DNA of 64,000 nucleotides from assembly GCA_019649675.1 (NCBI GenBank), contig BOWN01000001.1, forward strand, positions 62,001-126,000. The letters are read 5' to 3'. Below are positions 42,165 through 50,647 of this stretch, piece after piece. How positions within the stretch are numbered: the stretch's first letter is position 1; the number at the start of each line of letters is the position of its first letter. The notes under the pieces were generated by a model that saw only the letters and a program-made list of their open reading frames with translations, made no database searches and was not told where the DNA came from. A program made the translations under genes and the position numbers. This DNA comes from Cryomorphaceae bacterium. GTDB lineage: Bacteria > Bacteroidota > Bacteroidia > Flavobacteriales > UBA7430.

Positions 42165-43746
42165 TTATTTAATAGTTAATACAATGGAACTACAACTCAC
42201 TGTATTTTGATATTCTTTTGATGTTCCTTTAGCAATGATATTTGTAAATGCAATATCTTGTCCGGATCTAAGGTTTGAGATTAAGTCTCTTACGTCGCTA
42301 GTTATTTCATCTGAGTTAACTTTTATAACCGTTGTATATTCCCCTTCTTGACGAACTTCATAAGAAACTACTTTATACTTTAGATCAAATGGAAAATTAG
42401 GGAGAAATGCAGCAACAAAATTAGCTCTTTTGAGTCTTCCTTTTGGGATTTTCCCTGACTTTGTCCATCAATATCAGCAATTGGCGGTGGTACTGATTTA
42501 ATACGAAACTCAATTGGTTTTCCAATAGCTTGACCATTAGCTTTGACTATAACTTGGGCAACACCTTTTGCACGTTTGGCAACTGTTGCAAGATACTGTC
42601 CAGGTTTTACCTTTTTAATGATACTTTTGAGCCAACAACCTCGAGATCTTCAGGAGAAAAACCAGGAACCGAAACATCAATAGGATTAGGAACACCTCTA
42701 TAAAAAACGTTCATTTTAGTAGGTGATACTACAGCCATAGCCTTAGCAACTTGATATTCAAATATTTTCTCATAAGGCACATTACCTTTATCAGTTGCTA
42801 AAATGATTTTAGCAGCACGCTTTTGAGTTCCTATACCAGAGGCAGGAACATTATAAAACCCTTTACCATTATATATTTGATTCTCTGGAATAGTATCTGC
42901 AAAGTTATAATCAGGAATAGTATCGTTTATAAAACGATCTGTAACTAAAATCATGGGCTTTGAAGTACTATCAAAGGCAGCGATCGAAATTGCTGCTCTA
43001 AAACTATCTCCCTCCATAACATAATTTTTTGATGAAACAACTTGTGCAACAGCTGTAGTCATTTTTATGTCGTCAGCAGATACACTTGCAAATAGATTTT
43101 CAACAATTTTCGACTCTATTGTAGAGGCATCAACTTGGTATTGAGATAAAAAAGTAAGTACTGCTATTAGTGGAACATTATTAAAAGTTCCGTATTCCCA
43201 ATCAACCTTCTTACCATCTTTCAAAAAATCATCAGTTTTGAAGCTAGACTTTATTATATTTTTAAGTTCATCATTGTTTGAAACAATATCCAGACTTAAA
43301 AGATAATTCTTGTAATTATTAATTTTTTCTCGAAACTCTTTTCCCTTAAAATTAGGTTTAACAAGCATAAGATTAGAAACTACAGATTTATTATCTGCAC
43401 CAGCTAATTCTATACCATCATCTTTATATCCACCTGTTATTTCTATCAATGTATCATTAAGCGATTGAACATATTGTCTAAAGTCATAGGCAGATTCTTT
43501 TACTGATTTAGCAACTTCAAACTGAGGTCCAACTTTAGTAGGAGCATTGTCAGCAGCATCACTAAATTTAGAATACAACACGTTAGACTGATCATTAATA
43601 TTTGACAAGTTAGACTTTAAAGAATTATTGACCTTAGCAAAAGCCTTCAACATATCCTTTGAAATATTAAGTGCCAGTAGAGCTGTTAACACGAGATACA
43701 TCATGTTAATCATTTTCTGCCTAGGTGAAATTTTTCCTCCAGCCAT
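42165..43746 (-). CDS. gldM: Gliding motility/T9SS motor protein GldM (frameshifts)
   Basis: GldM (PorM) spans the periplasm and, with GldL, forms the proton-driven T9SS motor. The N-terminus MAGGKISPRQKMINMMYLVL is diagnostic, and its single membrane helix is MINMMYLVLTALLALNIS. Periplasmic domains D1-D4 follow, including VSPTKMNVFYRGVPNPIDVS. The frame breaks near 42618 and 42445, then runs through KRANFVAAFLPNFPFDLKY to ..SSIVLTIK at 42165. The total is ~527 residues, normal for the family. The start codon is 32 bases after the gldL stop. Confidence 0.96.
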
Positions 43747-43778
43747 TTTATTATCTTTTAGTGATGATTACTTGTAAA

Positions 43779-44409
43779 TTATTTATTACTGTTCATAGCA
43801 TTTAGCATATTTCCATAAACGCTATTCAACTCACTTAAATTAGTTTTGAGCATTTCCAGCTCGATTCTCATCTGCTCTGCATTATCAAGAGATGATGTCA
43901 TATTAGCTGCCATTCTTTTAGTCGCGTCAGCTTGCTCAGCAGATGATCTAATTTGATCTTCATAAAGGTATTGATATTCTGGAGTTTTCTGCAGCCGCAG
44001 ATACTTGTTCACTATATTGTTTAGTACTATCAGCTATGTCAACAACAGAACCTATTCCGTTAGCAGCTTGATTTACTTTTCTTAGACCATCACCTAAACT
44101 TTGAATTAAATCTCATCAACCTTAGCTTTTTCGAGCATATTATCTAATTCTCTCACAGGACTCTTTTGTCATCATCATCCATACTAGCTAACTCAGGATA
44201 TACAAGAGACCAATCGTATCTGCATGTGGTTTTCGAAAGCAGAGATAAAGAATATAACAGCTTCAGTTGTTAAACCAACAGTTAACATGATATCTGCCCA
44301 GGCCAATGAAGTATTTTAAACATTGCACCTAGTATTACAACTGATGCACCTATACCTATAATTTGGCCATAAAATTTTGACCTGCTTTAGTTTGAAAAAA
44401 TTTAAACAT
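43779..44409 (-). CDS. gldL: Gliding motility/T9SS motor protein GldL (frameshifts)
   Basis: GldL (PorL) is the inner-membrane proton-channel subunit of the T9SS motor. From ATG 44409: MFKFFQTKAGQNFMAK, helix 1 IGIGASVVILGAMFKILHWP, and helix 2 LTVGLTTEAVIFFISAFE with the conserved membrane Glu. The cytoplasmic part (VRELDNMLEKAKV, LIQSLGDGLRKVNQAANGIG) ends NSVYGNMLNAMNSNK. At least five indels break the frame between 44000 and 44360. The total is ~211 residues. Confidence 0.93.
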
Positions 44410-44436: not shown

Positions 44437-45806
44437 TTAGTACCCGAAATCTACTGTTTCAACACCTGAGTAAGTCTTTACACAACGAAAACCAATATAA
44501 CACTTTGAAGTATCTTGATATTCATAATCTTTGGCTGCAACCTGCAAAAATGCACCAACATCTTTCCATGAGCCGCCTTTAATAACTTTTCTTTTCAACA
44601 TTGGATGAGAATCTCATCAGCATCATATGTGTAAAAAGGATTGATATCTGAAACAAACATACTGGCTGTAGGCTCAAAAGGTGTTGAGGTCCATTCTGAG
44701 ACATTTCCTGACATATTATAAAGACCATAATCATTCGCCCAATACGAAACTGCTGGAGCTGTAAATGCGAATCCATCTGCAATGTAATTACCTCGAACTG
44801 GTTTAAAGTTAGCTAAAAAACAACCCTTACTATTGCGAGAGTATGGACCACCCCATGGATAAATTGAATTCTCTTTATTACCTCTGGCAGCATATTCCCA
44901 CTCAGTTTCTGTAGGAAGGCGGTATTCTGTTTCAAATTTACGCTGATAAGGAGTTAGAAGTTTTAACCGGAAATCTGTTCTCCAGTTACAAAATGCTGTT
45001 GCCTGTTCCCAATTTACACCTACAACTGGGTATTCCCCATATGCAGGATGCCAAAAATAGGTGTCAAACATGGGTTCATTGAATGTGTAAGAGAAATCAT
45101 GTAACCAAGCTAGTGTATCAGGATAAACATAAACCTCAGCTTCTCTAACTAATGCTTCTCTGGAAAAACCTTCACGATAAGTTCGTGAATCTCGGTCGAA
45201 TCGGTTAGCTTTTTGTCCTGCTTGAGATTTATCTACCCAAGTATAATTATATTTCCAGATACGAGTATCAAAATCTCTAGTTCCATATAACGCTTCTTCA
45301 GCATCATAGAAAACACCATTATCGTAGAGAACACTTAGTATTTCATTATTTCCCCAATCAATATCATTATTGTATTGAAGTCGTTCATCGTCAGGAAGTA
45401 TCCATGGAGGAGTTTCAGATGGAGATTCTTCTTCAGGTTCTTCATAACCATCTGAATCTGATAAATATTCATAACCTTCAACACCATCTTCAGCCAAGAT
45501 AGTTCTTATGATAGAATCTCTAACCCAATGAACAAATTGACGGTACTCATTATTTGTAATTTCAGTTTGATCCATGTAAAATGAATGCATCGTAACTCGT
45601 TTCTTTGGCGTAGTATGAGCATATGGGACATCACCGTCATTAGCGCCCATAGTATGAGTACCCCTAGGAATATGAACCATACCATAAGGTTCGGTAGGAT
45701 AAAATTCACTTAAATCGTTAACTCCGACTAATTCACCTGATGGGGGAGTTCCGCAGCTACTAAAAAGTACTCCGACAAGGGTACCAAATAAAAGTATCTT
45801 TTTCAT
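44437..45806 (-). CDS. gldK: Gliding motility/T9SS lipoprotein GldK (frameshift)
   Basis: GldK (PorK) is an outer-membrane lipoprotein that forms the periplasmic ring of the T9SS with GldN. Start 45806 gives MKKILLFGTLVGVLFSSC (lipobox FSSC). The FGE-sulfatase-like domain shows GMVHIPRGTHTMGANDGDVP, SFYMDQTEITNNEYRQFV, RLPTETEWEYAARG and YNMSGNVSEWTSTPF. The frame breaks near 44608 and continues SHPMLKRKVIKGGSWKDVGA to CYIGFRCVKTY. The total is ~456 residues. Confidence 0.96.
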
Positions 45807-45844
45807 TTTATTTTGCTTCAATTTACTAATAAAAGTCATTAACT

Positions 45845-46784
45845 TTAGTTATAACGAATATTTCTGTAATGCGTAGGCATCTTGCCTGGTGGACGCATTC
45901 TGAAAGAATATCGCAACAATATTTCATGTGAACCACTCGATTCAGACTTTAGATCTGAAGTGGTTATGTCATAAGCATAGCCAAATTTAAGGTTTTCATT
46001 TATGTTGTAACCTGCAATCAGGACTACTGCATCATCCAATCTATAAGTCACACCTCCCCATAAATGATCAGCATACATAACATTAATATTAAAATCAATT
46101 TGAGTAGAAACCTCATCCGTTTTAACAAACATTGAAGGACGCATTAGTAACTCGCTTGACACTTCATGCATCCAACCCATTGTAAAATAGTGATGCTTCC
46201 TGAACTCAAAATCAGTATCATCATTATTTCCATAAACTGCCGTACGCCTGATTAAGGTGAGTAACTGAATAACCTATGTAAAGCTCCTTCATCCTGTAAT
46301 AAAGACCAAGACCTAAATCAGGAACTATATCGTTTTCCCCTATTGCGGGAATAGACGGATCATCAGCACCAGAATTATTACCTGGAGTCAACCATTCACC
46401 TTCAAAACCAACATCCATAAAACCAAGGCTCAAACCTACACCTAACTCAGACTTTTTTGAAAGCTTTGTTTGGTAAGCATAAGATAGGTTTACACCTCTA
46501 GTATACTCATTTCCAATTTTATCATTCAACAAACTCACCCCAGCACCTCCGTGCAAAAAATACACAGGGGCCTCTACACTCACATGCTGAGTGACGGGTG
46601 CACCAGAACCAAATCCAACCCATTGGCTTCTGTGTATTGCCAAAGCATTAAACTGGTCATAGCTACCCGAAAAAGCCGGGTTAACAGAATATATGTTAAA
46701 CATATTTAACGAGAACTGAGGATCTTGTTGTGCTTTTAAAAATGTACTCAGCATCACGAAAAATAGTATCAAAACCTTTTTCAT
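45845..46784 (-). CDS. PorP/SprF family T9SS outer-membrane protein (frameshift)
   Basis: The signal peptide MKKVLILFFVMLSTFLKAQQ precedes DPQFSLNMFNIYSVNPAFSG, the hallmark N-terminus of the PorP/SprF family. These outer-membrane beta-barrel proteins attach to the T9SS translocon or to secreted partners. Later strands include GAGVSLLNDKIGNEYTRG and LKFGYAYDITTSDL. The end is LRYSFRMRPPGKMPTHYRNI. The frame breaks near 46225. The total is ~313 residues. It is first in the run porP-gldK-gldL-gldM-gldN, so a role with this motor is likely. Confidence 0.92.
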
Positions 46785-46918
46785 AAAATGCATTATCCGT
46801 TAGTTGCATCTATTTTAAGAGGGCTAAAGATAAAAAAAAAAACAAAAAATAGATGATTTATTAACAAACCTTTGTGAACTTTGAACAATGAGCTAATTAT
46901 TAACCAAATTAATTCATA

Positions 46919-48052
46919 TTATTTAAATCTAATATACTTTAATATTCTTCCGGAAAGCTTTCCATCAACAGCTTTTAAATAATCTAAATAGGAGCATGGC
47001 AGTAAATTTTCAGCAGAACCTATTTGATTAGAAAAATCTACCCACCATTTATCGCTGACCAAACTTTTATAAAAAACTAGCTCATTCAACTCAGAATTAA
47101 CATGAAACACCTTCAAATCACTAAACTTCTCAGTCAATAAATCACCTTGTCTTAAATGCAAACCCTCAAGAAAATACCAAATGGCCTGAGCATAAACTTT
47201 TGCACTCTGACTATTTTTATCAAGTCGAGGATTCAACTCTGAAAAAAGAACTGACTTAACTCTATTACTTAATCCCGCATAACGCAACATCACACACAAA
47301 CCCTCAGCAGTCATTCCATTAGGAGAAGAATAAGTATTTGCAGGGGCTTCAGAGGCTTTAATTACTGAAATATCAATACTTAAATGATCTAAACTTCTAA
47401 TGAAAGGTTCCATCTCATTTAAATCAGAATTGACCTCACCCAACCTAATCAGATTAAAATCCATTTGATTTAATAAATGTACTTCCTTAGGATTACATAA
47501 ATAAGTTTGATAGCCAAAAAGATTATAATTTGACAACATTGATTCTTCAGATGATATCAAATGAGATAAAAATGATCTAGAATGATAAGTATCGCCATCC
47601 TGAAAATCTAAATAAGCATCAGCCGAAGCTAAATTAAGAGGTTTTCCCAAAGCAGAATGGCCTTTAAAAATAGGAATCATTAAATCATGCCCTCCACCTA
47701 AAACCAACAAAACGCCTCTTCTATCAATTAAATAAGTGGAAAGCTGCTGTAATATCGCATGAGTATCTTTTACAGTTTGACCGATTCTTAAATTTCCTAA
47801 ATCTAAAATCTTTAAACCCCACTCTCCTTCGAACAACTCATATAAAGAAGATCTAATTTCATTAGGAGCTAAATCACAACTCTCATTACCTAAAGATAAT
47901 CGACCTTCAGGCACACCAATAATGAATACATCATAACTCGATAAATCATCATTAAAACTATCATCTAAAAAGTCCAAACAACACCCCAAAAGACTTTCAT
48001 CTAATCTTGTAGAATCAAATTGATAAGCATCAAAATATTGCTTCAAATCCAT
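46919..48052 (-). CDS. Ureohydrolase (arginase/formimidoylglutamase)-like protein with altered metal site
   Basis: A 377-residue protein with the arginase fold. The first metal motif GGGHDLMIPIF is intact. The second, normally DAHxD, reads SADAYLDFQDG, with the metal-ligand His replaced by Tyr. The third, normally SxDxDxxDP, reads SIDISVIKASEAP, with the second Asp replaced by Ser and DP lost. Two of six Mn ligands are therefore changed. The C-terminus has PNGMTAEGLCVMLRYAG, a family element. Such proteins sit beside gld genes and topA in Bacteroidota and are usually annotated as formimidoylglutamase. Here catalysis is doubtful. The frame is intact. Confidence 0.82.
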   Translation of the reverse strand: MDLKQYFDAYQFDSTRLDESLLGCCLDFLDDSFNDDLSSYDVFIIGVPEGRLSLGNESCDLAPNEIRSSLYELFEGEWGLKILDLGNLRIGQTVKDTHAILQQLSTYLIDRRGVLLVLGGGHDLMIPIFKGHSALGKPLNLASADAYLDFQDGDTYHSRSFLSHLISSEESMLSNYNLFGYQTYLCNPKEVHLLNQMDFNLIRLGEVNSDLNEMEPFIRSLDHLSIDISVIKASEAPANTYSSPNGMTAEGLCVMLRYAGLSNRVKSVLFSELNPRLDKNSQSAKVYAQAIWYFLEGLHLRQGDLLTEKFSDLKVFHVNSELNELVFYKSLVSDKWWVDFSNQIGSAENLLPCSYLDYLKAVDGKLSGRILKYIRFK

Positions 48053-48150: not shown

Positions 48151-50474
48151 TTATTTTTTTTGTTTGGTTTTACCCTTTGCTTTTACTTTTTTTTTTCTTA
48201 GGCTGATTCTCTATAATATAAAGACATTTATCTCGGTCTAAACCTTCTGCATCTATATCTTTTGGAATTTTATAATTCTTCTTTTCCATCTTGATATAAG
48301 GACCCCACCTTCCATGGAGAACCTGTATAGTCGGCTCATCATCGTCAAAAGTATGAATTGCTTCTCTGCATCCGATTTTCGCTTAGCAAGAATTAATTCA
48401 ACACATGTATCCAATTCTATAATCATGGGGTCATAGTCTCCCAGAGATACAAACTTTCCATCATGACGAACATAAGGACCAAATCTCCAACAGCAACTGT
48501 AACTAATTTATCTTCAAACTGCCCAACTTGACGAGGTAATTTGAATAATTCAATAACTTCATTTAAGGTAATAGACTCGATTGACTGTCCTTTCCGTAAA
48601 CTTGCAAATTTAGGTTTCTCTACTTCTGACTGACTACCTAATTGAGCCATGGGACCATAACGACCTATCCTAACCAAAGACTTAAGCCAGTTTTGGGGTC
48701 TACACCGAGAATTCGCTCTCCAACTGCACGATCTGAATTTTCTTTAACATCTACTAACTTTTGCATGAAAATCTCCATAAAACTTTTGAAGTACATCGTT
48801 CCAAATTTTATCACCAGATGCAATTTGATCAAATTCTTCTTCAACATTTGCTGTAAAATGAAAATCAAGAATAGAATTAAAGTTTAAAACTAAGAAGTCA
48901 TTTACTACAATCCGATATCAGTAGGACACAGTTTTCCTTTATTTGAACCTGACATCTCTTCTAAAACATTCGTTACTACTTCATCATTGATAACTCTAAG
49001 GAATGATAGGAGCGTAATTTACCTTCTCCATCTCCTTTTCAACATAACCTCTTCTTTGTAACTGTAGAAATTGTGGGTGCATATGTTGACGGCCTCCCTA
49101 TCCCTAATTCTTCAAGTTTTTTAACTAAACTAGCTTCAGTAAACCTCGCTGGTGCTTTAGTAAACCTCTCTCTAGAACTAATTTTTTTATAATCAACAGT
49201 TTCTCCCACATCAAGCTTAGGAAGAATTCCATCTTGTTCTTCATCTCCATCTTCGTCAGTCCCCCTCCATATAAACTTTCAAAAATCCATCAAAAACAAT
49301 AACCTCTCCTTTGGCAATAAAATTCTTTTCATGATTAGAACTGTCAATTGTAATGGTTGTTCTCTCTAATTTTGCATTTGACATTTGTGAAGCTATAGCT
49401 CGCTTCCATATAAGATCGTATAATTTTTGTTGGCCAAGATCATCACTTACAGTTCTATTCTCAACATAGGTAGGCCGTATAGCTTCATGCGCCTCTTGTG
49501 CCCCTTTGGATTTGGTTGAATATGATCGAGGGCTAGAATATGACTCACCGTATTCCTTTTTCTATCTCATTCTTAATTGATGACATAGCATCATTTGAAA
49601 GATTCATAGAGTCTGTTCTCATATAAGTAATTAAACCCGCTTCGTATAAACGTTGAGCAATTGTCATTGTTTGAGAAACAGAGAACCCCAACTTCCGAGC
49701 AGCTTCCTGCTGAAGTGTTGAGGTTGTAAATGGTGCAGCAGGGGTTTTAACAGCGGACTTTTTCTCAAGATCTGCAATACTAAAACGAGCATCGACACAT
49801 TTCTGCAAAAAAAGTTGAGCATCTTCCAAAGTATCTAAACGAGAATTAATCTCTGCCTTAAAAGTTCGACCTTCTTTATTAGTAAACTGACCAACTACTT
49901 TATAATACACTTTAGATTCAAAAGAATTTATTTGACGCTCTCGCTCAACTATAAGACGCACCACAACAGATTGCACACGCCCAGCAGATAATCCTTGTTT
50001 TACTTTTCTCCATAAAATCGGGGACAACTCAAAACCTACCAAACGATCTAAAACACGTCTAGCTTGTTGTGCATTTACTAAATTATAATCAATATCACGA
50101 GGATTCTCAACAGCTTTTGTAATAGCCGATTTAGTAATCTCATGAAACACGATTCGCCTTGTTTCTTTATTCTGTAAGCCTAAAGTTTCTGAAAGATGCC
50201 AAGCTATAGCTTCTCCTTCACGATCTTCATCAGTTGCTAACCAAACAACCTCGGAACTTTTCACTTCCTTCTTTAAAACCTTAACAGTATCTTTTTTATC
50301 AGTGGAAATTTCATAATTCGGAATAAATCCGCTTGAAATATCAACACCCATATCTTTATGTGATAAATCACGAATATGACCAAAACTTGACAAAACCTTG
50401 AAGTCTTTACCTAAAAAACCTTCAATTGTTTTTGCCTTTGCAGGCGACTCTACTATAACTAGATTCTTTGCCAT
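48151..50474 (-). CDS. topA: DNA topoisomerase I (many frameshifts)
   Basis: Relaxes negative supercoils. The TOPRIM domain is MAKNLVIVESPAKAKTIEGF with SFGHIRDL and ATDEDREGEAIAWH. The active-site segment is LITYMRTDSMNLS (Tyr at residue ~288). Downstream, after a frame break near 49548, GAQEAHEAIRPTYV is seen. C-terminal zinc-ribbon-like repeats (FGPYVRHDGKFVSLGDYD-type and GRWGPYIK-type) are present in several frames, ending in a Lys-rich tail at 48151. At least eight indels lie between 48180 and 49550. The total is ~775 residues. A Lys-rich basic C-terminus is common in Bacteroidota TopA. Confidence 0.92.
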
Positions 50475-50647
50475 ACTAATTCAAAAATTTGCTGCAAAAT
50501 TATGACAAGTTTTTTCAAATTACCAAATTACAGGACGAATATATGTTGACTTATATTTCCCCCTTTTAATTTTTATTAAAAGAATTTCTAAAAACAATTA
50601 ATCTAAAATCTAATTCTGTAAATTACTAGTTTTTTCACCTTTCATTC
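50475..50647. other. Divergent topA-miaB intergenic region
   Basis: An AT-rich gap that must hold the topA promoter. I see no hairpin and no clear -33/-7 pair for topA. The miaB promoter occupies the right edge. Confidence 0.35.

Follow-up and report, generated by a model that had tools for sequence, protein, structure and literature searches.

The gene analyzed here lies on the minus strand of a 64,000-nucleotide stretch of Cryomorphaceae DNA (hereafter, the window), between topA, encoding DNA topoisomerase I, and a porP-gldKLMN cluster (Table 1). This is the location given in the original prediction, and it is borne out by the ORFs of the window and by the corresponding loci of relatives. 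The gene consists of an intact open reading frame for an arginase-fold protein of 377 aa, with an ATG start and no internal stops. The clean frame that had been claimed for it was recovered, but it does not extend to its surroundings: between positions 42380 and 50480, frameshifts interrupt each of topA, porP, gldK, gldL and gldM, and the arginase-like ORF alone is whole. The splitting of topA, an essential gene, over several frames is a sign of indel errors in this metagenome-assembled genome.

Table 1. Features of the topA-gld region of the window.
Feature	Position	Strand	Basis or remarks
topA (DNA topoisomerase I), upstream neighbor	48170..50480	-	broken into several frames
Putative pseudo-ureohydrolase (arginase-fold protein), 377 aa	46919..48052	-	ORF, Pfam, AF2 model and PDB match
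Motif 1, GGGHD, residues 119-123	47684..47698	-	MnA His H122 retained
Motif 2, DAYLD, residues 145-149	47606..47620	-	D145 and D149 retained; Y147 replaces MnB His
Motif 3, SIDISVIKA, residues 225-233	47354..47380	-	D227 retained; S229 replaces MnB Asp
C-terminal extension, residues 300-377	46922..47155	-	W336 (72/72), W337, C353 (72/72), D357, Y358
porP/sprF-like gene, downstream neighbor	45845..46799	-	frameshift-split
gldK	44437..45848	-	frameshift-split; order confirmed in same-genus locus L149
gldL	43779..44315	-	fragmented; three TIGR03513 matches in G000 and ORF pieces
gldM	42380..43767	-	frameshift-split; ORF pieces, order in relatives

The window protein belongs to the arginase/ureohydrolase fold superfamily both by profile (Pfam Arginase, PF00491; E 1.5e-24, 87.4 bits against a curated cut-off of 22) and by predicted structure. 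Its AF2 model (pLDDT 93.1, pTM 0.93) matches PDB ureohydrolases generally with Z scores of about 29-37, the best match being the T. cruzi formiminoglutamase 4myn (Z 37.4, rmsd 2.0), on which residues 17-302 superimpose with 278 aligned positions and 22% identity. With HutG (TIGR01227; T. cruzi 4mxr, 4myn and 2a0m, B. subtilis 3m1r) the protein shares this fold as well as elements of motif context, namely Q182, present in 6 of 7 canonical relatives, and an S-A-P stretch following the third metal motif. It differs from HutG in the absence of the MnB ligands, in the presence of an extra C-terminal domain and in its score against the HutG equivalog model, which reaches 72.5 bits where the cut-off is 229.15. 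The identity of an active formimidoylglutamase was rejected on the basis of this score; a relative within the window's own family (G009, locus L146) bears a HutG at 288.3 bits. The protein is probably cytoplasmic, as judged from the lack of a visible signal sequence, and a search of a plasmid collection for relatives of its gene returned no matches.

The three metal-binding motifs read in the 377-aa protein are those described in the original prediction. Using the numbering of human ARG1, for which we take the equivalences to be H101=H122, D124=D145, H126=Y147, D128=D149, D232=D227 and D234=S229, exactly two of the six metal ligands are replaced, both of them in the MnB site, and all four MnA ligands are present. 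The protein hence holds four of the six binuclear-cluster ligands by which a catalytic ureohydrolase is recognized. As laid out in PMC6988801, the MnA ion of ureohydrolases has as its ligands the first-motif His, the Asp pair of DAHxD and the leading Asp of SxDxD, and the second metal is bound by the two bridging Asp residues, the DAHxD His and the second SxDxD Asp; the same source has the DSHPD His and the later Asp of motif 3 serving the second metal only. With no pair of metals there is no bridging hydroxide, and normal ureohydrolase chemistry would therefore not be expected. A same-genus relative (L149), 75% identical to the window protein, likewise has DAYLD, together with SIDMS. The dN of 0.14 obtained for this gene pair is well below the dS of 0.63 (NG86), which indicates that the gene is under purifying selection.

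The loss of these ligands was followed in a 72-row alignment comprising the window protein and 71 of 80 regions chosen for their spread over families; seven canonical ureohydrolases were set aside, as were L122 and L124, which are partial or weak members. None of the 72 family members, the window protein included, has a complete MnB site. The H126 position is occupied by His in a single member and the D234 position by Asp in four, all four belonging to the divergent family f5. An alignment of homologs from the gldK locus had been proposed as a check on the substitutions; they are family-wide, occurring at this locus as well as away from it, and the outcome that would have refuted the prediction, retention of all six ligands by homologs at the locus, was not seen. 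An MnA-like [HQN]DDD set is found in 59 of the 72 members (26 with strict HDDD). The first-motif residue of this set is labile (Q in 34 members, H in 28, N in 7, D in 2 and S in 1, with 12 switches between H and non-H on the tree), and the GGGHD of the window protein is therefore nothing special. When the 377 columns are ranked by conservation, D124, D232 and D128 take ranks 24, 30 and 48, against 267 and 252 for the lost ligands H126 and D234; by these ranks, the decay of the ligands is selective and not random. Both MnB ligands are present in all seven canonical ureohydrolases, whose canonical status was judged from near-intact motifs (N stands at the first motif in one protein and at D128 in one) and among which only L146 exceeds the hutG cut-off. 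Set against these seven proteins, the family forms a single clade (SH-aLRT 100). The hutG model matches 71 of the 72 members, with a best E of 2.6e-28, and no NCBIfam model specific to the family turned up. The f5 loci (L102-L105) carry a highly divergent version of the protein, on a tree branch of 2.46, in which the DAHxD region reads ISNIIS or ISNVVS.

Common to the family and absent from the seven canonical ureohydrolases is a C-terminal domain of about 75 aa, corresponding to the last 78 residues of the window protein. Predicted on its own, this extension reaches a pLDDT of 82.7 and adopts the same secondary structure as within the whole-protein model. A Pfam scan of the domain from five members yielded nothing above cut-off (SH3b_P2 appeared weakly, with an E of 0.0022, below its cut-off), and PDB fold searches returned lists with no recognized fold (best E 0.78, best Z 4.3). 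Fifteen columns are invariant across the 72 rows; W292, W336, C353, E215 and R219 are conserved in every family member and unconserved in the seven canonical proteins. One of the family matches (G067:C1:2219784-2220779) is embedded in an open frame of 694 aa, which may represent a fusion or merely a long upstream frame.

Relatives of the gene were identified in 10 of the 12 genomes of the window's family, its own included, and in 228 of 296 genomes of the same order. Across the class, taken as Bacteroidia (three named loci being assigned to Flavobacteriales or Bacteroidetes MAGs by a single-sequence contig scan), the family profile matches 235 of 246 sampled genomes at an E threshold of 0.001, a figure that may include cross-hits to canonical enzymes (G602, 6.6e-4; G712, 3.1e-20). 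Scored against GldL in these 246 genomes, the gene and GldL are both present in 233, both absent in 5 and discordant in 8 (233/6/2/5). This co-occurrence is non-random by a Fisher test that ignores kinship (p 1.3e-6), and the five genomes with neither gene include three from a single family, f24.

Gene order around the family was compared in the loci retrieved. All 32 fetched Flavobacteriales loci outside f1 and f5 (L070-L101) present topA, the gene, and then porP and/or gldK, and the eight f1 loci agree with this order as far as their contigs extend. Several of these and other loci (L071, L080, L086, L088, L100, L141, L142, L145 and L149, among others) display a wider block in which a sigma-54-type regulator and miaB are divergent from topA and an FAD oxidoreductase often follows gldN. 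In one locus (L101; G283, f15), topA and the arginase-like gene are followed by four consecutive gldK-like ORFs and then by gldM, with a marginal GldL match (5.2e-4).

Given the MnB loss and the extra tail domain observed in relatives across the class, it is very likely that the window protein performs a non-enzymatic job, and the proposal that it is a non-catalytic relative recruited for another function draws further support from the purifying selection on its gene. Judged from sequence, the family is apparently an undescribed, class-wide pseudo-ureohydrolase, and not an active arginase or formimidoylglutamase. We consider it probable that this family, which has lost MnB and keeps the MnA half-site and the C-terminal domain, is related to formimidoylglutamase and acts as a binding module. 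The loss of the MnB site, and hence of the metal-bridging hydroxide, would predate the diversification of the window's class. The MnA half-site still has its three carboxylates, and the small additional domain at the C terminus carries invariant Trp and Cys residues. Hydrolysis of guanidino or formimino compounds would thereby have been abandoned, and the old pocket, perhaps occupied by one metal or by a cationic ligand, would together with the C-terminal domain constitute a binding module, sensor or scaffold. The Trp/Cys tail domain may contact a partner, and the process in which that partner takes part would most likely be a non-essential accessory one, related to the envelope and the T9SS or linked to topA.

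A role in the T9SS and gliding, suggested by gene position, would be a more specific version of this reading. The protein would act in the cytosol, regulating the GldLM motor or its biogenesis or serving in its assembly, with the dead pocket as its sensor for a small cation or metal. We regard this as possible, and hold it tentatively. Among the 113 genomes of the 246 for which positions of both the gene and gldL are listed, matched by hand, 75, representing 23 of 31 families, have the gene upstream of gldL, on its strand and no more than 7 kb away, and its presence and absence track those of GldL as described above. The linkage is nevertheless missing in the remaining 38 genomes (e.g. in f16, f17, f21, f22, f79, f100 and f108) and was never seen in 8 of the 31 families, where a scan of nine neighboring proteins revealed housekeeping genes and none of the T9SS. 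In two genomes, G020 (L167) and G022 (L168), topA is directly beside gldK or porP, the gene is cleanly missing and gldKLMN is intact; a search of both genomes for a relative of the gene found none, and they are in effect natural knock-outs. G001, from the window's own family, has GldL, and no arginase-family gene was found in it. The core T9SS genes hence persist without this gene. The evidence on the link to gliding or secretion that had been proposed is divided: adjacency and co-occurrence with GldL speak for it, and the unlinked families, the two losses and a tighter coupling with topA speak against it. A still more specific version appears rather unlikely: the protein would be a class-wide regulator of the T9SS motor derived from a dead arginase, in which the half-site would sense cations or metals of the cytosol and the Trp/Cys domain would relay this to GldL or to some other protein on the motor side, linking gliding and secretion to cell physiology.

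The coupling with topA is the basis of the alternative that the protein is a housekeeping factor tied to topA or to general physiology, its nearness to gldKLMN being inherited gene order; this, the other specific version, is about as probable as the gliding role and is likewise to be entertained with some doubt. The gap between topA and the gene has a median of 7 bp and is at most 30 bp in 30 of 40 cases, against a median of 126 bp for the gap to porP or gldK, which is at most 30 bp in none of 42. The TAnnTTTG sequence, which we take to be the Bacteroidota -7 promoter motif, occurs in 8 of 41 of these downstream gaps, compared to a mean of 5.3 in shuffled sequence. In three of its four loci, family f5 keeps topA on the strand of the gene and no more than 4 kb away, with the gld operon located elsewhere. 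Against a constant tie to topA, the f16, f17, f21 and f22 loci, in which the gene is away from gldK, have no topA within about 8 kb, and in the family of the window about 95 bp separate the gene from topA.

It is unlikely that the protein is still an enzyme, catalyzing a different reaction with one metal at MnA. The four MnA ligands of the window protein would allow such one-metal chemistry, and the pervasiveness of the [HQN]DDD set and the rank of its three Asp residues among the more conserved columns are in line with it. The first ligand, however, varies among H, Q, N, D and S and has changed repeatedly on the tree, and the bridging-hydroxide site is gone from the family. The position equivalent to E277, the Glu to which the guanidino group binds in arginase, is E in 41 of the 72 members, the window protein included, and G in 18. 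Substitution of the first motif alone leaves activity in the Z. mobilis dimeric arginase, which has Cys there and so also departs from the first metal motif; unlike the window protein, according to PMC6988801, that enzyme keeps both metals.

Metformin hydrolase offers a precedent for an inactive subunit that requires an active arginase-family partner. The AF2 model finds some of its best structural matches in chains of this enzyme (Z 33-34), and the window protein resembles MetCb/MfmB (8ryi, 8snf, 8x3g) in being a ureohydrolase-fold pseudoenzyme that has lost metal ligands. As described in PMC11271267, MetCb has lost five of the six ligands, compared with two in the window protein, and forms a hexamer with MetCa, its adjacent active paralog; no such paralog was seen in many of the genomes searched here. 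A single weak PF00491 match (E above 1e-30), read as the pseudo-ureohydrolase alone, was obtained in 18 of 118 genomes searched, including that of the window (71% complete) and its relatives G010 (98%) and G011 (96%), and no second family-profile match was detected within sixty-odd bases to a few kb of the gene in Flavobacteriales loci. A MetCb-type pair was therefore rejected for lineages with a single arginase-family match, and we consider it very unlikely in general. Finally, an artifact or a decaying pseudogene, a reading encouraged by the many frameshifts in adjoining genes of this assembly, is scarcely credible, since a same-genus relative has the same replaced residues, as the original prediction had anticipated in doubting sequencing error, dN is well below dS and the protein is conserved family-wide.

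Dead ureohydrolases are already known. The arginase-like protein of T. brucei has an arginase fold without the binuclear cluster, as in the window family, although it is eukaryotic and restricted to a single lineage; to our knowledge, it has no C-terminal domain of the kind found here. An orthologous family that spans a class, has a C-terminal domain of its own and frequently occupies the topA-gldK junction was not found in the open-access papers searched, where titles and the beginnings of abstracts yielded no paper on it. The terms arginase and formimi- were also searched for in individual T9SS papers, together with Fjoh_185, our guess at the locus-tag stem of the F. johnsoniae homolog. None of these terms occurs in PMC8986121, PMC10994853, PMC10936215, PMC12239597 or PMC11885536, and the family was not found in the available part of the T9SS paper PMC12635249.

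Among curated names, the one that fits the family best is that of an enzyme whose chemistry has probably been lost, and annotation from the hutG match would assign histidine or arginine breakdown to these genomes in error. As a conserved and apparently dead enzyme beside the genes of the T9SS motor, the protein would constitute a cheap and direct target for study.
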